Source: Ignavibacteria bacterium
Lineage (GTDB): Bacteria > Bacteroidota > Ignavibacteria > Ignavibacteriales > Melioribacteraceae
Direction of reading: 5' to 3'
Length of the DNA: 53,402 nucleotides
Assembly (NCBI GenBank): GCA_012719345.1
Contig: JAAYAN010000066.1
Location: 1 to 53,402 of the forward strand
Numbering within the stretch: position 1 is the stretch's first letter; each line of letters begins with the position of its first letter. The notes beneath the pieces were generated by a model that saw only the letters and a list, made by a program, of their open reading frames with translations, did not search any database and was not told the origin of the DNA. The position numbers and the translations under genes are program-made. Positions 26,672 to 49,243 of the stretch are shown piece by piece.

Positions 26672-27067
26672 ATGAAACAATATTTTAATCATGAAAAGCT
26701 GCAGGTATATAATAAAGCGTTGGATTTCGTATCTTGGAGCAATAGTCTCATAACAGAAAATAAACTTTATAAATATTCGGTAGCGGATCAATTAGATCGA
26801 GCTTCTACTTCAATTGTGCTTAATATTGCAGAAGGAAACGGAAAATACTCCAGTAAAGACAAATGCAGATATTTTGATATTGCCAAAGCCTCATCATTGG
26901 AATGTTCAGCATGTCTTGATATTATATATACAAAAAATTCAATAAGTGAAAAAACTATTGAAAATGGAAAAGAGAAATTAAAAGAAATTGTATCTATGCT
27001 TTATGGATTAATAAAAAGTAATTACGACAGAATTTGTGAACCAGACGAAGGTTACGAAAATCTATGA
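26672..27067 (+). CDS. Four-helix-bundle protein (S23/IVP-like), copy 1
   Basis: This 131-residue protein has the family features: FNHEKLQVYNKALDFVSWSN, VADQLDRASTSIVLNIAEGNGK and a C-terminal KLKEIVSMLYGLIKS. The family is known as the 23S rRNA intervening-sequence protein and in diversity-generating loci, and occurs freely in Bacteroidota genomes. It is bounded by AT-rich repeat arms (26550-26560; 27069-27090) in inverted orientation. Its role is unknown. Copy 2 is at 28550 and shares QLDRAS/QMRRSS and NIAEG. Confidence 0.85.
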   Translation: MKQYFNHEKLQVYNKALDFVSWSNSLITENKLYKYSVADQLDRASTSIVLNIAEGNGKYSSKDKCRYFDIAKASSLECSACLDIIYTKNSISEKTIENGKEKLKEIVSMLYGLIKSNYDRICEPDEGYENL

Positions 27068-27068
27068 T

Positions 27069-27090
27069 CTTACTCTTAAACCTTACTCTT
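27069..27090. repeat. Right repeat arm after four-helix-bundle copy 1
   Basis: CTTACTCTT occurs twice (27069-27077 and 27082-27090), the inverse complement of AAGAGTAAG in the left arm at 26550-26560. It ends 5 nt before the ATG of the next gene. Confidence 0.6.
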
Positions 27091-27095
27091 TTACA

Positions 27096-28493
27096 ATGAA
27101 CAAAACACTCGAAAAAATATTTATACTTTCGTCCGATTTTATAGCAATAAATCTTGCTATGATATTCTATTTCTATTTCAGGGTGGAATCGGGACTTTTC
27201 CAGCTTTTGATTTATCCCGAATTTTTCCTGCCAATGGCAGCCCTTTATATTTACTGGCTTTTGCTTTTCAGTTTTGTAGGAATGTACCGTACCTGGTTTG
27301 CCGCCTCCCGTTTTGATGAACTATCTACTTTATTCAAAGCAACTGCTGTGGGTGTGTTTATAATGTTTTTCGGCATTCTGCTCGATGATTTTATAACCGG
27401 AAGCCCCTCAAGCAACAGGTTTCTGATATTTATATATTGGGGATTTCTCCTTTTCTTTACAAGCATCGGCAGAATTTTTATACGCAGTTTCCAGCGCAAA
27501 CTTTTAATTAAAGGAATTGGCAGAAGAAACGGAATAATTGTCGGTTATAATCAAAAAGCATTTAATATTCTTAAAACCGTTGAAAATTACAAAGGATTAG
27601 GAATTGATATAAAAGCTTTTGTTGCCATAAATAAAGAAAATGTAGGAAAAAAAGTTGAAAACATTGAAGTTGTAGGGACTTACAAAAATGCTGCCGAAAT
27701 TATTAACCGGTTTGATATTAAAGAAGTAATTATTGCTCTCGAAAAGCAGGAAAAGGACGAAATGCTTGAAGTAATTTCAGCCTGCGATTCGAAAAATACA
27801 GGGATGAAAATTGTCCCCGACCTTTACGAAATAATAAGCGGGCAAGCCCGCACTTCGCAGCTTTACGGATATCCGCTTATCGATATTAAACCTCAGCTTA
27901 TGCCCGAATGGGAAAAGAAAATTAAAAGAATGGTTGATTTAATTGTATCGGTCATGCTGCTGATTTTCAGTCTTCCGGTGATGATAATTACAGCAATAGC
28001 CATAAAATTGGAAAGTGAAGGTCCGGTTTTATTCAAGCAAGAAAGACTGGGGCTTGAAGGAGAAAAATTCAATGTACTCAAATTCCGTTCTATGGTTAAT
28101 AATGCCGAAAAGAAAACCGGTCCGGTTTGGGCGCAAAAACGCGATCCCCGAATAACAAGGGTAGGAAATTTTATCCGTAAGGTGCGAATTGATGAACTTC
28201 CGCAATTGTTTAATGTTTTAAAAGGCGAAATGAGTCTTGTGGGACCCCGTCCCGAACGCGAATTTTTCTTTGATAAACTTGAAAAAGAAATTCCTCTTTA
28301 TCGCAGACGATTATCTGTTAGACCCGGAATTACCGGCTGGGCTCAGGTTAAGCACAAATACGACGAAACAATTGAGGATACAAAAACGAAATTGCAGTAC
28401 GATTTGTTTTACATCGAGAATATCTCGTTGCGAATGGATTTTAAGATTTTAATAAGAACTGTATTTACAGTGATTTTCGGAAAAGGACAGTAG
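27096..28493 (+). CDS. Polyprenyl-phosphate glycosylphosphotransferase
   Basis: The ATG at 27096 is chosen over a GTG at 27036, which would overlap the preceding gene; the protein then has 465 residues. Four membrane helices are followed by a CoA-binding-3-like Rossmann domain (NGIIVGYNQKAFNIL, about residues 145-265), a fifth hydrophobic segment and a Bac_transf catalytic domain with FKQERLGLEG, KFRSMV, DELPQLFNVLKGEMSLVGPRPE and SVRPGITGWAQV. This is the WbaP/EpsE-like enzyme that puts the first sugar phosphate on undecaprenyl phosphate. No ribosome site is visible; the repeat arm lies there instead. Confidence 0.9.
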   Translation: MNKTLEKIFILSSDFIAINLAMIFYFYFRVESGLFQLLIYPEFFLPMAALYIYWLLLFSFVGMYRTWFAASRFDELSTLFKATAVGVFIMFFGILLDDFITGSPSSNRFLIFIYWGFLLFFTSIGRIFIRSFQRKLLIKGIGRRNGIIVGYNQKAFNILKTVENYKGLGIDIKAFVAINKENVGKKVENIEVVGTYKNAAEIINRFDIKEVIIALEKQEKDEMLEVISACDSKNTGMKIVPDLYEIISGQARTSQLYGYPLIDIKPQLMPEWEKKIKRMVDLIVSVMLLIFSLPVMIITAIAIKLESEGPVLFKQERLGLEGEKFNVLKFRSMVNNAEKKTGPVWAQKRDPRITRVGNFIRKVRIDELPQLFNVLKGEMSLVGPRPEREFFFDKLEKEIPLYRRRLSVRPGITGWAQVKHKYDETIEDTKTKLQYDLFYIENISLRMDFKILIRTVFTVIFGKGQ

Positions 28494-31809: not shown

Positions 31810-32760
31810 ATGGCGGAAGTAATACTCGATTTCGAGAGACCAATCCGCGATCTCGAGAACAAAATAGAAGAAATGCGTAAATACGAGGACAATCTCGGTT
31901 TAAAAAAAGAAATAGAAAATCTCGAAAAAAAAGTAAATCAGCTTAAAGAAAACATATACGAAAATCTTACACGATGGCAGCGGGTTCAGCTTGCCCGTCA
32001 TCCCGAAAGACCTTACACGCTGGATTATGTTTATATGATGACGGAAGATTTTATTGAGTTTCACGGCGACAGAAATTACGCGGACGATAAAGCAATTGTC
32101 GGGGGATTTGCAAAAATTGACGGGCAAAAAGTTATGATCATAGGACATCAGAAAGGGCGGGATACAAAGTCGAATATTTACCGCAATTTCGGAATGCCGA
32201 ACCCAGAAGGATACCGCAAAGCTTTAAGACTGATGAAACTTGCTGCGAAATTCGATGTTCCGGTTATTACTTTGATTGATACCCCCGGCGCATTTCCTGG
32301 AATTGAAGCCGAAGAACGCGGACAGGCAGAAGCAATTGCCCGCAATCTTTTGGAGATGAGCAGACTGAAAGTTCCGATTATTGTTGTTATAATAGGCGAA
32401 GGAGCCAGCGGCGGAGCTTTGGGAATCGGAGTAGGCGACAGAATATTGATGCTGGAAAATACCTGGTATTCGGTAATTAGTCCCGAATCCTGCTCAAGTA
32501 TTTTATGGCGTACTTGGGAATATAAAGAACAGGCAGCCGAAGCGCTTAAACTTACCGCAAAAGATTTGTTGGAACAAGGAATAATTGACCGGATAGTTCC
32601 TGAACCGTTAGGCGGCGCTCATAAAAATCATCAGAAAATGGCAGATATTCTTAAAAATACATTGCTCGAAGAACTTGTTCTCTTCCGAAAAATTAAACCG
32701 GAAAAATTAATTGAGCAAAGGATAAATAAATTTGGTAAAATGGGATTTTACAAGGAATAG
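31810..32760 (+). CDS. accA: Acetyl-CoA carboxylase carboxyltransferase alpha subunit
   Basis: This 316-residue protein has the AccA N-terminal coiled-coil-like region ([37 protein letters not shown]), then [70 protein letters not shown] and [20 protein letters not shown]. It transfers the carboxyl group from biotin to acetyl-CoA in fatty acid synthesis. The start follows the upstream stop by 2 nt and its ribosome site AAGGAG is inside that gene. The domain is full length. Confidence 0.95.
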
Positions 32761-38760: not shown

Positions 38761-39585
38761 ATGGAAAACAAATATGCACTTATTTTAGGAGCTTCAAGCG
38801 GATTTGGAGGAGCAGCCGCTATTGAGTTAGCAAAAAACGGATATAACATTATAGGAATTCACTTAGACAGGCAAGTTACAATTCCAAACGTAAATCAGAT
38901 TATAAAAAAAATAGAAAAAAATCACAGAAAGGGGTTATTTTTTAATATAAATGCTGCCGATCAGATAAAAAGAAATGATGTTCTTGATGAAATTACCGAA
39001 CGATCTTCAGGAGAAGATAAAATTAAGATAAATGTACTGATCCATTCCTTGGCTTTTGGTACACTTAAACCTTTTATTACATTAAAACCCGAAGACGGAA
39101 TAAACAAAGCTCAAATGGAAATGACGCTTGATGTAATGGCTCATTCTCTTGTTTACTGGACGCAGGGTTTGGTTCAGCGTGGACTTCTTGCAAAAAATGC
39201 AAGGATAATTGCTTTAACAAGCGCCGGTTCGCAGACTGTAATTCCATCCTACGGTGCGGTTTCTGCTGCAAAAGCTGCTGTTGAATCCCATATCCGATAC
39301 CTTTCTGTTGAGCTTGGCTCGATGGGAGTTACGGCTAACGCAATTATGGCGGGAGTTACAGATACCCCGGCGCTCAGGAAAATACCCGGATCGGATATGA
39401 TGCTTTCTTCTGCCAAATTAAAAAATCCTATGGGCAGACTTACCACTCCCGAAGATGTTGCAAAAGCTATTATTTGTCTTTGCGATGAAAAATCCGATTG
39501 GATCAGCGGTAATGTAATAGGTGTTGACGGCTCTGAATACAGAGTTAATTATATGGGAGAAAAAGTTTGTAAAAATATTAAATAG
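38761..39585 (+). CDS. Enoyl-ACP reductase-like SDR (FabI/FabL type)
   Basis: This 274-residue short-chain dehydrogenase starts ALILGASSGFGGAAAIELA. The catalytic stretch is SYGAVSAAKAAVESHIRYLSVELGSMGVTANAIMAG, with Tyr and Lys separated by six residues (Y-x6-K), the enoyl-ACP reductase spacing rather than the YxxxK of most SDRs. IHSLAFGTLKPF and the GRLTTPEDVAKAIICLC end are compatible with FabL. So I read it as an enoyl-ACP reductase of fatty acid synthesis, though a different SDR cannot be excluded. Confidence 0.7.
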   Translation: MENKYALILGASSGFGGAAAIELAKNGYNIIGIHLDRQVTIPNVNQIIKKIEKNHRKGLFFNINAADQIKRNDVLDEITERSSGEDKIKINVLIHSLAFGTLKPFITLKPEDGINKAQMEMTLDVMAHSLVYWTQGLVQRGLLAKNARIIALTSAGSQTVIPSYGAVSAAKAAVESHIRYLSVELGSMGVTANAIMAGVTDTPALRKIPGSDMMLSSAKLKNPMGRLTTPEDVAKAIICLCDEKSDWISGNVIGVDGSEYRVNYMGEKVCKNIK

Positions 39586-39944: not shown

Positions 39945-39989
39945 TAAATAATTTGATAACGGAAGCATAACTAAACAGGAAAATTGGAA

Positions 39990-41567
39990 ATGAAAAAGAT
40001 ACTTATCTCAGATAATTTAGATCCGCGCTGTGTTGAAATATTTAAAGAGAGTAATATTCAGGCAGATTTGAAACCAGGTTTATCGAAAGAAGAACTTCTT
40101 AATATTATTGGCGATTACAACGGCTTAATAGTCCGAAGCGCTACTCAGGTTACTGCCGAAGTAATTGAGAAAGGCGTTAATTTGGAAGTAGTAGGCCGCG
40201 CAGGAACAGGTATTGACAACATTGACGTAAATGCTGCAACGCGTAAAGGTATTCTTGTGATGAACACTCCCGGTGGGAATACAATCTCTGCTGCCGAGCA
40301 TACATTTGCTTTAATGATGTCTCTTTGCAGAAATATTCCGCAGGGTGACCGTACAATGAAAGAAGGAAAGTGGGAAAGAAAAAATCTCAGCGGCTGCGAA
40401 TTGAGCGAAAAAACAGTCGGAATAATCGGCCTTGGAAAAATCGGGCGCGAAGTTGCTTTAAGGGCACAAGCTTTTAATATGAAAGTACTCGGTTACGATC
40501 CGATTATGTCTGAAGAAGCTGCTGCAAAATTAGGTATTCAGCTTGTCTGTTTGGATGATATTTATGCTCAGGCTGATATTATAACATTGCATGTTCCTTT
40601 AAACGACAAAACAAAAAACTTAATATCCCTTGAAACATTGAAAAAATGTAAAAAAGGTGTTAAAATAATAAATTGCGCCCGCGGCGGAGTTGTTAATGAA
40701 GATGAAATTGTAGAAGCTATTGATAACGGATATGTTTCCGGGGCTGCATTCGATGTATATTCCGAAGAACCGCCGAAAAATGAAAAACTTGTTAAACATC
40801 CTAAAATAATCTGCACACCTCATCTGGGTGCTTCTACTGTTGAAGCTCAGGAGAAAGTGGCTTTTCAGATTGCCGAGCAGATTGTTGATTTTTATAATGG
40901 AAAGGATTTCAGCGGTGCAGTAAACAGTACTGCAGTTAAAACATCCGATAAAACAATTTCTCCATTTATCCGCTTAGCCGAAGTTTTAGGTTCGATGATT
41001 GCGCAGTTTTCAGGAAAGAATATTTCGGATATAAGAATTATTTACGATGGCGAAAATTTAAAGGAATACGCAAAAGCATTATCGGTTGGTGCTGTTAAAG
41101 GAATTCTTTCAAATACAATACACGAACCTGTTAATACAATTAACGCTTTATTTTTTGCAAAAGAAATGGGATTGGATTATAAAGAAATTTTTAATCCATC
41201 AAGTATTAATTATGCTGCCGAAATAACGATAAAAGCAAAAACAGAATTAACTGAAATTAGTGTTTCGGGTACTGTTTTTAACGATACAGAAATAAGAATT
41301 ACCAGTATTGACGGTATAAAATGCGAAATTATTCCATCAGGTTATATACTTTTTTACAGAAATATAGATAAACCAGGAATGCTTTCTCAGGTAAGCAAAA
41401 TACTGGCCGATTACAATATAAACATAGGCGGGTTATCGCTTGCGCGTCAAGATAATGTAAAAGAAGCTATGACTGCTGTTAGTGTTGATTCCGAAATTTC
41501 TAATGAAGTATTAGCTCAAATATCGCAAATTAAAGATGTTAAGGAAGTTTTCTTTGTACATTTTTAG
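39990..41567 (+). CDS. serA: D-3-phosphoglycerate dehydrogenase
   Basis: The start is the ATG at 39990 (a TTG at 39984 exists), giving 525 residues. It has VVGRAGTGIDNIDVNAATRKGILVMNTPGGNT, the nucleotide motif GIIGLGKIGREVALRA, NCARGGVVNEDEIVEAI and TPHLGASTVEAQEKVA. A C-terminal ACT domain starts near 450 (YRNIDKPGMLSQVSKILADYNINIGGL). The intervening ASB-like domain makes it the long form. It begins serine synthesis from 3-phosphoglycerate and is probably feedback-regulated through ACT. Confidence 0.93.
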   Translation: MKKILISDNLDPRCVEIFKESNIQADLKPGLSKEELLNIIGDYNGLIVRSATQVTAEVIEKGVNLEVVGRAGTGIDNIDVNAATRKGILVMNTPGGNTISAAEHTFALMMSLCRNIPQGDRTMKEGKWERKNLSGCELSEKTVGIIGLGKIGREVALRAQAFNMKVLGYDPIMSEEAAAKLGIQLVCLDDIYAQADIITLHVPLNDKTKNLISLETLKKCKKGVKIINCARGGVVNEDEIVEAIDNGYVSGAAFDVYSEEPPKNEKLVKHPKIICTPHLGASTVEAQEKVAFQIAEQIVDFYNGKDFSGAVNSTAVKTSDKTISPFIRLAEVLGSMIAQFSGKNISDIRIIYDGENLKEYAKALSVGAVKGILSNTIHEPVNTINALFFAKEMGLDYKEIFNPSSINYAAEITIKAKTELTEISVSGTVFNDTEIRITSIDGIKCEIIPSGYILFYRNIDKPGMLSQVSKILADYNINIGGLSLARQDNVKEAMTAVSVDSEISNEVLAQISQIKDVKEVFFVHF

Positions 41568-41939: not shown

Positions 41940-44912
41940 ATGCATCGAAAAATTTTTTACTGTCTCTTACTTCTTTTGTTAATGCCGGTTTTATTGCTGG
42001 CAAGCACAAAAGGAAGAATTAAAGGTAAAGTTGTTGATCTTCAGACAAACGAACCTTTAGTTGGTGCAAACGTTCTTGTTATCGGTTCAAGCACAGGAGC
42101 TGCAACCGATGCAAGCGGAGAATTTGTGCTGCAAAACCTTGAAGCCGGGACTTATACCCTGAAAGCTTCATATCTCGGTTATCAGTCGATAACAATTTCT
42201 AATATAAGGGTAAATGCAGATCTTACTACAGATATAGATTTCCAACTGCCGGCAGAAGGAATTAATGTAGGTACTGTGGAAATCATAGCAAAAAGACCCC
42301 TTATACAAAAAGATAATACTAATAAAATTAGAATCACTTCAAGCGAAGATATTGCCGCTTTGCCTGTGAGAAGCGTTAACCAGATTATTGGATTAAGCGC
42401 GGGAGTTGTATTGCAGGATAATGCAGTTTTTATCCGCGGCGGACGTATTGATGAAGTTGGATTTTACCTTGAAGGAACTTCAATAAAAAATCCTATGACA
42501 GGAGGAAGAGGAATTACATTGTCGCAAGATGCAATTGAAGAAGTTCAGGTTCAATCCGGCGGTATGACTGCTGAATTCGGTAACGGAAATGCCGGTATTG
42601 TAAGACAGTAGCTTAAAACTGGAGGAGCTGAATTAAAAGCTAGTCTCGAATACATAACTGATAACATTACTTTTAAAAGTAAAAATAATGCTTATGATGG
42701 CGAAAAGCGTTTAGGCGCTTACTGGTATGGATATGATGAATTAAGCGCTGTTTTAAGCGGACCTATGCCGTATTTTGAAAACAGAGTGAAATTTTTCGCT
42801 AATTTTAATTATCAATTTAATAGAGACAACGATCCACAGCCTTATCCCGGTATCAATATCGGTAATATTGTATTTACAAATGGCGATAGTGCCAATTTTG
42901 TATATCCTGCAGGAGCTATTAAAGGAAACAGACGCGAATCATATTCGTATGCCGGTACTTTAAATATCGATCTTAATCCGGTTATAATCCGTTTATCCGG
43001 AACTTATGCCGACATTACATTTGATGATTACAGACCGACTTTACAAAGTATGTTTAACGACAGAATAGAAAAAGGCAAGCAATTTAACGGTTCCTTAAAC
43101 TTAAAATTAACTCACGTAATTGATAACGAAATGTTTTATGAGGTCTCTTTGGGTTACTTCTATATGGAAGGAAATACCAGAGATCCTTATCTTAAAGGAG
43201 ATTACTGGTCTTACGGAGATTCATTAGCCAATGCAAAATACGGTTTTAATGCGCAGCCTTCACGTTATGCCGCTCCTGTTGACTGGAGAATTTACACTTT
43301 CAATTTTACAAAACCGGGAACAGTAGTATCCAATTTTACAAAATTCGATAGAAGAAACTTTAACATTAACGCATCTTTAACTTATAATCCTAATAAAACA
43401 CACTCTTTGAAATTAGGAGGAGAGTTTATTCAATATACTATGAGAAATTGGAGTACAAGCGTATTGCAATCTTCACTTATTGGAACATATATGAACCAGC
43501 GCGCTTCGTATCCTGGACTTACTTCAAAAGAACTAAAAGAAACTATTTTACGCGGAAATAACGGTGGCGTAAACAATTACGGATATGATGTTTTAGGTGA
43601 AGAATATGACGGCAACGGATTTTACGCTCCGCATAAACCTATAATGGCAGCAGCATATATTCAGGATAAAATTGAATATCAGGATATTATTCTTAATCTT
43701 GGTTTAAGATGGGATTATATGGATGTTGATAACCTGCAGATGAAAAATCCTGCCAGACCATGGGAAAGTATTGATTTTGCTAACAATAACACGTTGCTTG
43801 AAAATGGTTGGGAAGCTACGCGTTCTTTCAGTTATGTAAGTCCCCGTATAGGAATATCTTTTCCTGTATCGGATAAAACAATGTTTCATGCACAGTTTGG
43901 TAAATTTGTTCAATATCCGCGGTTAGTAGATGTTTATCAGGGTTATCACAGAACAGCTTATGAAATCGGTCAGAATTTCTTCTTCGGATCCCCGACAGGA
44001 AGAAATATTGAACCTACCAAAACAACTCAATATGAAATCGGTTTTACTCAGCAGTTAACAGATTTTCTTTCATTTGATTTAACAGCTTATTATAAAGATG
44101 TTAAAGATCAGGTAGTGTTTGCAAAACAAGTACTAGATAAGGATAGTCCTGTTGCAGGGTTACGCGATTATAATACATTAGCAAACGGCGATTTTGCAAC
44201 TACAAAAGGATTTGAAGTAACCTTTACTATGAGAAGATATCAAAGATTGCAGATGAATGCAAACTTATCTTTCCAGGATGCACGCGGAACAGGATCTTAC
44301 CCGAATTCAAACAGAGGTATAATGGGTACGCCTGTTGAAAACAGATTTTTCCAGCCGGTTTATATTTCTCCTCTTGAATATAATAACGATTTAAGAGCAA
44401 ATTTAAACCTCGATTACCGTTTTGGCGTGAATGACGGCGGAAGTATCTTAGAACAGATGGGAGCTTCTTTACTGGTTGAATATTCAAGCGGACATCCTTT
44501 TACCAGAGGAACAGGCGGAATTGATTTGGAAGGCGATGCAAGAAACAGACAGCCTGTTGAACCATTAGGTGCATCAACAACTCCTTCAACTTTGCAATTC
44601 GATCTTAGAATTGATAAATCTTTTGATATTTACGATAAATTAAAAGCAAATGTTTATGTTCTGATTATCAATTTGTTCGATGCTAAAAATATCGAGAATG
44701 TTTTCCTCAGAACAGGTACAACTGACGATGACGGAGTAATTAACGATCCTTCCTTGCGTCCTGCCGGTTATGGAGCGGATTACGATGCTTTGTATAAAGC
44801 AATTAATGTTGATTATTACGAGCAATATCAGGCAGCAGGCGGATTGCAGACAGCGCCATATTTTTATGGGTCGCCTCGTCAAATCAGATTAGGAATTAAG
44901 CTTGAATATTAA
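41940..44912 (+). pseudogene. TonB-dependent receptor interrupted by one in-frame TAG
   Basis: From the ATG at 41940 (AGGAG upstream) to 44912 is a single reading frame of 990 codons interrupted only by a TAG at 42609-42611. It starts with a signal peptide and a carboxypeptidase-regulatory-like domain (KGKVVDLQTNEPLVGANVLVIGSS), then a plug domain ending AEFGNGNAGIVRQ, the TAG, LKTGGAELKASLEYITD and a full barrel ending IRLGIKLEY. The stop would remove the barrel. Either it is a recent null mutation, a sequence error, or it is read through. Neighbouring genes are T9SS and barrel genes. Confidence 0.8.
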
Positions 44913-44951
44913 TAAAATCTTGCTAATCAAGATGCTAAACAGGAGTTTAAT

Positions 44952-47900
44952 ATGATGAAAAAATTAAATAAAAGTATAAGGATCTTTTTTATTATATCTT
45001 TTGCAGTAGCTGTTTCGGTTAATGCTGAAGGCATAAGAGATAAAAAAGCTTCTCTTAATAAAAGTGCAGGAAGTCCTGCCCAAACAAAATTTAATATTAA
45101 TAACGTATCAACTTATTTTTCCAATAACGGCGATTCGGATTTAGACCCTGCCAGCAACAGCGGATTTATATTCCCGAAAGGAAGCAACAGAGGCGTATTC
45201 TTTGAATCCGGATTAGTTTGGGGTGGGAAAGTTGATAATAGTGTAAGAGTAGGAGGTTCTACTTATTCACAAGGATTGCAGGGAGGCAGAATAACAAATT
45301 CAGGTTTGCCTACAAATCAGCTTATTGCAGAAAATCCTTCAGAAAATCATGTAAGAATTTACCGTGTTAGAAGAGATTACAAAATCGGAATTTTAACACC
45401 GGAAGCTGTTGATGAAGGTGTTACTGTTGATGAAATATATGCACAGTATGAAAAAGACTGGAATGAGTGGCCGGCACAATACGGCGCTCCTTACGATGAC
45501 GTCGATTCAAATGGTGTATATGATCCAACAGTCGATATACCTGGTGTCCCAGGTGCAGACCAGACAATCTGGTATGTTGCAAACGACTTAAATACATCCT
45601 ATGTCTCTGGTTTATACGGTTCACCGCCGATGGGAATAGAAATGCAATTAACTGTTTGGGGATATAATCGAGGCGGAGCATTAGGTAACATGCTCTTCAG
45701 AAAATATCAAATAATCAATAAATCGAATAAAAATTTCGAAGATATGTATGTTGCAATGTGGTCTGACCCTGATTTAGGAGATGCAAACGATGACTATGCA
45801 GGATGCGATACAACTTTAAGTTTAGGTTTTATTTATAACGGACAATCTGCCGATCAGACTTATACTGACGGCAGAGTTCCTGCAGCAGGATTCGACTTCT
45901 TCCAAGGACCTTTAATTCAGGGTGAAGCAGGAGATAGTGCAATATTTAAGAATAAAAAAGTTTATGGAAAAAAGAATATGCCAATGACAGCATTTTTCTA
46001 TTTTATAAATTCTGATGCTATTTATTCCGATCCACCTTTAGGTGAATATCAAGGTACAACTGAAATGTATAATCTTTTGCAGGGAAAAATCGGTACTTCC
46101 GGTGATTTATTCCCTATTCCCGATGAAGTTGGCGGAGGTTTTACAACTCTTCCATTATCAGGTGATCCAAATAGCGGTACCGGATATATAGATGGTATAT
46201 TATATCCTCCAGGTGATAGAAGATTTGGTATGGCATCCGGACCATTTACAATGGCTGCCGGTGATACTCAGGAAGTTGTAGTAGCTCAAATTGCCGCTAG
46301 AGGTTCAAATTATATGTCTTCTGTTGAACTCTTAAAATCATATGATGAAGCTGCACAGAAGGCTTATGATAATTTCTTTAAATTACCTTCTCCGCCTAAC
46401 CCGCCCAAAGTATCTGTTACTGAAATGGATAATAGCATTATTCTCAATTGGGGAAAAGATTTAAAAAATGCTGAGTTAACAGAATCACAAGATGATCAAG
46501 GGTATAAATTTCAAGGATATAATATTTATCAACTACCTAATGCCTTTAATTTTGATGAGGCTCAAAGAATTTTCACATTTGATATTAACGATGGTGTTAA
46601 AACAATAGTTGGTGAAGAGGTTGACCCTGCAACTAGTGCAACAATTACTACCGTTCAGCAAACAGGAAGTGATAATGGAATTTCAAGATCTGTGAATATT
46701 ACAAACGATAAATTCAGCGGCAAACCTCTTGTTAACGGAAATAAATATTATTTTGCTGTAACAGCTTATAATTATAATGAAGATCCGTTAGCAGTACCAA
46801 ACAATTTGGAGAATACAATAGCTGTTGTTGAAGTTATACCTCAGGGACTTAATCCAGGTTATCGTTACGAAGGAGCTTATGGACAGAATATAGAAGTGAT
46901 ACACAATGGTCCTTCTGATGGCATAATTGAAGCAATTGTAGAAGATCCCAAAGAATTAACAGGAAAAACATATACAATATTTTTTGAAGAAATTGCAGAT
47001 ACAAATTCTGCATTGTATGGAAGCACTGTATGGGGGGCTTTTTCAGGAAATGATACTCTTATTAAAAGGCAACCTCAAATACCTTATGATAATAGTAATA
47101 GTTCAGCGCCTGTAATTGATGGGGTAAAAGTTGCTGTAAAAGGTCCCTCCCTTGGTTTTAAGAGTGTTTATGAAACAGATGCTTCAGATGCAGTTGTTGA
47201 TCCAAGTGTATCAATTTTAACACCTAGTCTTGGATCAACAGGTTATATACTTAGTCATCGTTTACATGTTTCTGGCTCAGCAGGCAGAACTTGGGATCGA
47301 TTTGAACAATGGGGTATGGATGATGTAATCATTGATTTCTCAGAAACATCTTTAGCTTGGGACTACATAAATGAAACTATTCAAGTAGACACAAGTACTT
47401 TGCAGCCTATTAGAATTCCTTATTCAGTATATAGGGTTAAATTTCCTTCTGGTGAAAAAATAAGGTTATTTGCAGGTTTTTACGACATTGATGGAGATGG
47501 CACTTGGAATATGCCGAAGGATGGAGATGAATATATTTGGGTAGATGTTTATGGACCTTGTTATGAATCTATTTTTGCATGGCAGGGATATGATGCTAAT
47601 GGTAATGAGATTCAATATAATCCAGCAAATGATGCTCAATATGTTGAAGAAAACAACCTCTATACTTCTGCGAATACTACTTTCGGAGATGCAACAGGTG
47701 AGTTTATATACCCATTTTTAACCGAAACATTTTTCTGTATGTATCTTACAAATGCAACACCTCCGTTTGGGAACAAGATAGTAATATCTACAAACAAAGC
47801 AAATACAAATGCAGACCAATTTACCTTTACAGCTCCAACTTCCGGATATGATGCTGAGTTGGCAAAAGAAGATGTTAAGAAAATTAACGTTTATCCTAAT

Positions 47901-48191
47901 CCGTACTATGCTGTTAATCCAGAAGAAATAAATAAATACGAAAGATTTGTTACATTCACTCATTTACCGCGCAAAGCAAATATTAAAATATTTAACCTTG
48001 CGGGACAATTAGTTAGAAGTATTCAAAAAGAAAATAATTCGCAGTTTGCAAAATGGGATTTGAAGAACGATTCAGGTTTACCAGCTGCCAGCGGTATGTA
48101 CATTGCTCATATAGATTTACCAGAAATCGGTAAATCTGTAATTGTAAAACTGTCGATTATTCAGGAACAGCAGATTTTGGATAGATTCTAA
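44952..48191 (+). CDS. Secreted protein with T9SS C-terminal sorting domain
   Basis: This 1079-residue protein has a signal peptide (IRIFFIISFAVAVSVNAEG) and a large beta-rich body with Asp/Gly-rich loops (YDDVDSNGVYDPTVDIPG, DIDGDGTWNMPKDGDEY). A fibronectin-III-like part starts near 480 (PPNPPKVSVTEMDNSIILNWG). The last 95 residues form the Por-secretion type A domain: INVYPNPYY, IKIFNLAGQLVRSI, WDLKNDSGLPAASGMYIAHI. Such domains direct export through T9SS. No catalytic motif is seen; the body resembles adhesin-like cargo. It follows the receptor by 39 nt. Confidence 0.82.
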   Translation: MMKKLNKSIRIFFIISFAVAVSVNAEGIRDKKASLNKSAGSPAQTKFNINNVSTYFSNNGDSDLDPASNSGFIFPKGSNRGVFFESGLVWGGKVDNSVRVGGSTYSQGLQGGRITNSGLPTNQLIAENPSENHVRIYRVRRDYKIGILTPEAVDEGVTVDEIYAQYEKDWNEWPAQYGAPYDDVDSNGVYDPTVDIPGVPGADQTIWYVANDLNTSYVSGLYGSPPMGIEMQLTVWGYNRGGALGNMLFRKYQIINKSNKNFEDMYVAMWSDPDLGDANDDYAGCDTTLSLGFIYNGQSADQTYTDGRVPAAGFDFFQGPLIQGEAGDSAIFKNKKVYGKKNMPMTAFFYFINSDAIYSDPPLGEYQGTTEMYNLLQGKIGTSGDLFPIPDEVGGGFTTLPLSGDPNSGTGYIDGILYPPGDRRFGMASGPFTMAAGDTQEVVVAQIAARGSNYMSSVELLKSYDEAAQKAYDNFFKLPSPPNPPKVSVTEMDNSIILNWGKDLKNAELTESQDDQGYKFQGYNIYQLPNAFNFDEAQRIFTFDINDGVKTIVGEEVDPATSATITTVQQTGSDNGISRSVNITNDKFSGKPLVNGNKYYFAVTAYNYNEDPLAVPNNLENTIAVVEVIPQGLNPGYRYEGAYGQNIEVIHNGPSDGIIEAIVEDPKELTGKTYTIFFEEIADTNSALYGSTVWGAFSGNDTLIKRQPQIPYDNSNSSAPVIDGVKVAVKGPSLGFKSVYETDASDAVVDPSVSILTPSLGSTGYILSHRLHVSGSAGRTWDRFEQWGMDDVIIDFSETSLAWDYINETIQVDTSTLQPIRIPYSVYRVKFPSGEKIRLFAGFYDIDGDGTWNMPKDGDEYIWVDVYGPCYESIFAWQGYDANGNEIQYNPANDAQYVEENNLYTSANTTFGDATGEFIYPFLTETFFCMYLTNATPPFGNKIVISTNKANTNADQFTFTAPTSGYDAELAKEDVKKINVYPNPYYAVNPEEINKYERFVTFTHLPRKANIKIFNLAGQLVRSIQKENNSQFAKWDLKNDSGLPAASGMYIAHIDLPEIGKSVIVKLSIIQEQQILDRF

Positions 48192-48217
48192 TTAAATAAT
48201 AGTTTAGGAGAAATAAA

Positions 48218-49243
48218 ATGAAACATATAAAATTATTGACATTACTATTTGTCCTTATTTCTGCTGTAAATATATTTGCAAGCGGCGGAAAAAGGAACGG
48301 TACAGCCGGAGCTGCAACGCTTTTAATACCGGTTGGTGCCAGAGGAGTAGCAATGGGCGGTTCTACCCTTGTTAACTCTGTCGGTGTGGAATCGATGTAT
48401 TGGAACCCGGCAAACCTTGCCAGAAGTGAAAACTCAACAAGCCTTTTTATATCGCATATGACCTATTTAGCTGATATAAATGTAGAGTATGGAGCTCTTG
48501 GTGTAAATCTTGGAAGTTTCGGATCGTTGGGAATTGATATTAAGGCCTTAAAAGTCGGTGATATTCTGATAACAGATACACAAAATCCTGACGGAACAGG
48601 TGCAACATACAATCCTTCTGTTACAGTTATAGGTTTAACATATGCCCGTGAATTAAATGACAGAATAGCTGTTGGTGTTACTATAAATTATATAGATGAA
48701 ACTATAGACCGTGTGAGCGCTTCAGGTATTTCATTTAATGCGGGTGTTTCATATATTAATTTTGCAAACATTGACGGTTTATCTTTTGCAGTAACAATGA
48801 AAAACCAGGGGCCTGAAATGAAATATGAAGGATCGGGTTTGAGAATTGATGCTACTGCCGATGATCTTAAACGCGGAAAACAGTCATATCTTGCTGATGC
48901 TGCCAGTTTCGAATTACCTTCTTCTCTTGAGTTCGGCGTTGGTTATAAATATGCATTAGATACCCAGAATGAAGTTAATGTTTCGGGTGTTTTTCAAAAC
49001 AATAACTTCTGGAGCGATGAATATAAAATAGGCGCCGAATATGGTTTCGACAATATGTTCTTTGCCCGCGTGGGATATGATTTTGCTCCCGATGTTGATA
49101 AAGAAGCACATATTTACGGTTTTGCAGCAGGCTTTGGTATAAACTACGAATCCAACGGTTTTGCAGCAAAATTTGATTATGCTTACAGACAAACAGAAGT
49201 GTTTGACGGCAACCACGTATTTTCAATATTACTAGGATTATAA
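48218..49243 (+). CDS. PorV/PorQ-family outer-membrane protein
   Basis: This 341-residue protein has a signal peptide (KLLTLLFVLISAVNIFASGG) and the family start GTAGAATLLIPVGARGVAMGGS with SVGVESMYWNPANLA, then repeated strands to the final FSILLGL. PorV is a 14-stranded barrel needed for T9SS cargo handover, and members of this UPF0164-like family occur as many paralogues. It comes 26 nt after the T9SS-CTD gene, so the pair may be a cargo with its own shuttle. A strong terminator follows. Confidence 0.85.
   Translation: MKHIKLLTLLFVLISAVNIFASGGKRNGTAGAATLLIPVGARGVAMGGSTLVNSVGVESMYWNPANLARSENSTSLFISHMTYLADINVEYGALGVNLGSFGSLGIDIKALKVGDILITDTQNPDGTGATYNPSVTVIGLTYARELNDRIAVGVTINYIDETIDRVSASGISFNAGVSYINFANIDGLSFAVTMKNQGPEMKYEGSGLRIDATADDLKRGKQSYLADAASFELPSSLEFGVGYKYALDTQNEVNVSGVFQNNNFWSDEYKIGAEYGFDNMFFARVGYDFAPDVDKEAHIYGFAAGFGINYESNGFAAKFDYAYRQTEVFDGNHVFSILLGL

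Follow-up and report, generated by a model that had tools for sequence, protein, structure and literature searches.

A single in-frame amber codon interrupts an otherwise intact TonB-dependent receptor gene at the head of a conserved three-gene cassette in an Ignavibacteria genome

TonB-dependent receptors such as PfeA, PirA, FepA and BtuB are built from a plug and a barrel, a fold common to them and to the structural model obtained when the receptor gene described here is read through its internal stop codon. As it stands in the draft genome of an uncultured Ignavibacteria bacterium, this gene differs from the listed receptors in stopping before the barrel and in sharing 10–14% sequence identity with them; compared with the solved structures, its protein adds an N-terminal CarboxypepD_reg-like domain. 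A second point of reference is provided by young bacterial pseudogenes, in which a single in-frame stop lies within a sequence that is otherwise intact and similar to its relatives, as is the case here; sequence error aside, we see no difference between this gene and such young, one-disablement pseudogenes. According to one source (PMC522871), pseudogenes account for 1–5% of most prokaryote genomes.

The window, that is, the whole 53,402-nucleotide stretch analysed, corresponds to contig C56 of a draft genome that totals 4.02 Mb in 323 contigs. Within it, a forward-strand frame running from the ATG at 41940 to a TAA at 44910–44912 is cut once, by a TAG in frame with that ATG, which leaves 223 codons on its 5' side and 766 sense codons on its 3' side (Table 1). 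The first-pass annotation had described a lone amber codon in an otherwise intact TonB receptor, and the alignments bear this out: the read-through frame aligns nearly full length (to residue 990), the read-through protein, with X at the stop, is 44–60% identical to relatives over nearly its whole length, and residues 1–766 of the 3' part align to relatives. The same annotation correctly reported an open frame behind the TAG, although its length of 767 codons has to be corrected to the 766 counted, the higher figure either including the terminal stop or being off by one. That a 766-codon open frame should match the family along its whole length by chance would not be credible. Within the 5' part, Pfam profiles placed PF13715 at residues 27–113 and the plug, PF07715, at residues 124–219 (31.1 bits against a cut-off of 23.9). 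Residue 224, the position of the stop, falls inside a model strand spanning 219–225, with the following strand starting at 233; the first start codon after the TAG lies 51 codons downstream.

Table 1. Coordinates, in the window, of the interrupted receptor gene, the other cassette genes and further genes that end in TAG
Feature	Position	Strand	Description
Receptor, 5' part	41940..42611	+	223 aa + TAG; signal-peptide-like start, CarboxypepD_reg-like domain, plug
In-frame TAG	42609..42611	+	Residue position 224; last plug strand before the barrel
Receptor, 3' part	42612..44912	+	Beta-barrel, 766 open codons + TAA; from alignment to relatives and fold match
Longest ATG frame after the stop	42765..44912	+	715 aa; without signal peptide, without plug
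Second cassette gene	44952..48191	+	1079 aa, open; secreted, T9SS-type C-terminal tail (TIGR04183)
Third cassette gene	48218..49243	+	341 aa, open; PorV/PorQ family (NF033709)
Glycosylphosphotransferase	27036-28493		TAG stop
accA	31810-32760		TAG stop
FabL-like gene	38761-39585		TAG stop
serA	39984-41567		TAG stop

The identity of the receptor was examined at the level of both structure and sequence. The read-through model, built with 31 relatives in the alignment, has a mean pLDDT of 74.1, and a Foldseek comparison returned 292 PDB matches at E <= 0.001. All 50 matches listed are TonB-dependent receptors, some of which we take to be such from their names; the best among these 50 is PirA (E 2e-27), PfeA, FepA and BtuB are also among them, and the four are matched at a Foldseek probability of 1.00. 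Sequence profiles are less telling for the 3' half, where no Pfam family was detected at 0.001, unlike in relative L003, whose barrel family PF25183 does reach this threshold; an NCBIfam TonB-siderophore receptor profile showed weak similarity to the same half (32.9 bits against a cut-off of 223.5). Matches in sequence-profile searches fell mainly in the N-terminal domain for RagA and others, and in the barrel for PhuR. The likeness to SusC/RagA (TIGR04056) covers the CarboxypepD_reg-like domain and part of the plug (residues 27–159), and membership in that family was rejected, as the score of 54.5 bits lies far below the curated cut-off of 368.25 and concerns the N-terminal half only; no SusC match appeared in the barrel half when the two halves were scanned apart. 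The ancestral gene carries both features of a TonB-dependent receptor, the plug by Pfam profile and the barrel by the read-through model. As now encoded, no product has both, for the TAG follows residue 223.

To place the stop in a comparative context, 58 genomes were searched, comprising the organism's own and 57 relatives. Some match to the receptor was found in 57 of the 58; among the 57 relatives, a hand count gave 29 that reach 1e-150 or better. The comparison set comprised 32 sequences, drawn from the 1e-150 matches and four named loci (three Melioribacter or Melioribacteraceae records). It left aside the two sequences of the genome itself, namely the receptor copy L001 and its distant paralog L002, as well as L032, which shares its coordinates and identity value with L004 and was taken to be the same sequence; L016 and L034 are identical and were both kept. 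None of these 32 relatives has an internal stop. The column occupied by the TAG holds glutamine in 25 of them, aspartate in three, serine in two, glutamate in one and alanine in one (glutamine in 24 of 31 with one identical pair removed), and the glutamine codons, counted by hand, are 9 CAG and 16 CAA. The site thus tolerates several residues, the stop being unique to the window among the sequences compared, and the prevalence of glutamine agrees with the earlier proposal of a C-to-T change of CAG as the origin of the stop. Relative to its intact homologs, the frame is disabled, a pseudogene feature of the nonsense type. The genus is represented by one genome only, and the nearest relatives stand at about 60% identity. 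Because the close family is patchy, loss of the receptor is taken to be tolerated in the clade.

How long ago the interruption arose can be gauged from the 3' part of the frame. After the stop, 173 columns are conserved at 90% among the other sequences; the window protein breaks 6 of these and ranks 13th of 33 in increasing order. Before the stop, 6 of 69 such columns are broken, a rather high figure exceeded only by L022, L024, L025 and L027; this high 5' breakage cannot stem from the stop. With columns conserved at 97%, 1 of 82 is broken after the stop and 0 of 34 before it. An old pseudogene is ruled out, as the 3' frame shows no decay. With a transition weight of 2, every 1% of neutral divergence would be expected to add about 1.1 stops over 766 codons, so that the lack of any further stop places the interruption below about 2.4–3.5% neutral divergence, depending on the transition weight and ignoring indels. 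The absence of decay leaves either a very young interruption or a sequence error. Taken together, the tests reported here narrow the choice first put forward among mutation, strain switch, readthrough and error to fresh mutation or sequence error.

We favour, with somewhat better than even confidence, the inactivation of a TonB-dependent receptor gene by a single nonsense substitution of very recent date. Translation would then end after residue 223, yielding a truncated product in which the export signal and the regulatory-like domain would be retained together with most of the plug, but not the barrel; such a product would neither insert into the outer membrane nor transport, and is presumably inactive. 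The rest of the gene would have been under normal constraint until very recently, in keeping with its lack of decay, and the two downstream cassette genes may be expressed less through polarity.

The evidence for such a null allele is equally expected under a sequencing or assembly error. A sequence, assembly or strain-mixture artefact, in which a sense codon is carried by the organism or by the bulk of its population and the base in the contig is wrong or belongs to a minority, is possible, if less probable than the favoured substitution: the 990-codon frame bears a single disablement and is otherwise intact and free of decay, the source is a draft assembly, and many internal-stop pseudogenes in assemblies are described as artefacts in one source (PMC11017572). 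Against this stands the scarcity of comparable interruptions elsewhere in the genome. We ran a codon-usage scan for stops with same-frame coding on both sides and no ATG within 12 codons. Of 2925 simulated positions it recovers 1294 (44%), and it is blind to frameshifts. Five places passed it in 1.42 Mb, namely the receptor TAG and four that are otherwise explained: three (L176 17406, L082 18951 and L192 13637) are each antisense to a long open frame, and the fourth (L125 19699) precedes a non-ATG start, the sequence after it being one that we take to resemble ribosomal protein S3. The window was excluded from the count because it had been chosen for its stop; outside it, no other interrupted gene was found in 1.37 Mb at 44% sensitivity, for an upper bound of about 5 interruptions per Mb (3/(1.37 × 0.44)), and an earlier version of the scan over 694 kb gave the same picture. 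Errors of this kind are therefore not frequent in the assembly, nor is the genome decaying as a whole. Further against an artefact, no second receptor allele or copy was found at the DNA level in the own assembly. None of the 25 plug-domain matches in the genome was reported to contain a stop within the matched region. Separately, a TonB-receptor-like frame on another contig (C183; L139 1120–1737) ends after 205 aa, still within the plug and about 90 bases short of the end of the contig; the gene may be truncated, or the contig faulty at this end. On balance, a real null allele is more likely than an assembly error, and the stop is probably present in the living organism.

The meaning of TAG in this genome bears on whether the codon terminates translation at all. 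The release factor RF1 is present (516.1 bits against a cut-off of 423.25, in an open frame of 369 aa), and PylS gave no match in the own genome, while the control exceeded the cut-off in 1 of 14 genomes. Among 40 tRNAs found none has a CUA anticodon. This set is not complete: scoring covered 150 of the 241 first-look candidates, and common isoacceptors such as tRNA-Ile GAT and tRNA-Ala TGC are missing, which the draft may have lost together with the rRNA operons. Across 91 stretches of the same genome (1,422,630 bases), TAG is the stop of 79 of the 814 coding segments that reach 150 codons or more, against 560 for TAA and 175 for TGA. Within the window, 7 of the 46 ORFs examined end in TAG, the interrupted receptor included; four others stop within 1–4 positions of the end of their family profile, and the two remaining gave no NCBIfam match. 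TAG had been read at the outset as an ordinary stop in the glycosylphosphotransferase, accA and FabL-like genes, whose profiles indeed end within that distance, and serA behaves likewise. The accompanying view that general recoding is unsupported therefore stands, and UAG recoding was rejected on the presence of RF1, the wide use of TAG as a terminator, and the failure to find PylS or, among the 40 tRNAs found, one that reads UAG.

Functional readthrough or suppression, in which UAG is sometimes decoded so that a full-length receptor is made, perhaps at a regulated level, is a separate matter and one that we regard as improbable. The decoding might be by a tRNA absent from the draft or by near-cognate recognition, for a low, perhaps strain-specific receptor dose; this, too, seems improbable. 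Selection would then maintain the frame behind the stop, which is indeed fully constrained, and with an incomplete tRNA set a suppressor could lie unseen. For E. coli, one source (PMC11126739) describes some basal readthrough of UAG, below that of UGA and above that of UAA, and reports readthrough to be favoured by high G and low T downstream. Here, by contrast, the first bases after the TAG are A- and T-rich, and the downstream RNA structure is unremarkable (z -1.16). The stop is common to none of the 32 orthologs, in contrast to the conservation that goes with programmed readthrough, and the tRNA, RF1 and PylS results and the other TAG-ended genes of the window likewise speak against it.

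Phase variation often targets outer-membrane receptors, and for this reason a reversible strain or phase switch at the TAG codon was also weighed; we consider it very unlikely, since the stop is a single-base change with no repeat tract at its position, and there is no second DNA-level copy for conversion, the only other barrel match in the genome being 27% identical. A split gene, with the two halves made as separate proteins, draws on the 715-aa ATG frame that follows the stop and is equally hard to sustain. That frame begins inside the region aligned with relatives, none of the 32 relatives is split, and, having neither signal peptide nor plug, its product could presumably not reach the outer membrane; a split gene was rejected on this expected lack of export.

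Beyond the stop itself, the receptor heads a conserved three-gene cassette (41940–49243) seen across L003–L035. Profile scores for the two downstream genes are 27.7 bits against a cut-off of 23 for the second and 176.4 bits against 90 for the third. The secreted-protein gene adjoins the receptor in all 33 relative loci (31 distinct), and the PorV/PorQ gene is present in all four relative loci with enough flank. No close second copy of the receptor or of the secreted protein was found in the own genome. A divergent set with the same gene order lies on contig C177 (L192 6830–13324), consisting of a 1093-aa TonB-like frame, a 716-aa frame and a PorV-like frame; its 1093-aa member is the 27%-identical barrel match mentioned above. 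Promoter and terminator scans returned about as many hits as shuffled sequence did, and a narrow literature search found no published account of the cassette.

Should the stop be a genuine null allele, it would represent one more receptor loss in a group where the close family occurs in about one genome in two (29 of 57); should it be an error, draft-genome annotation would break up a single receptor into two separate genes. The cassette is more informative than the stop itself, since its conserved composition suggests a dedicated surface complex.
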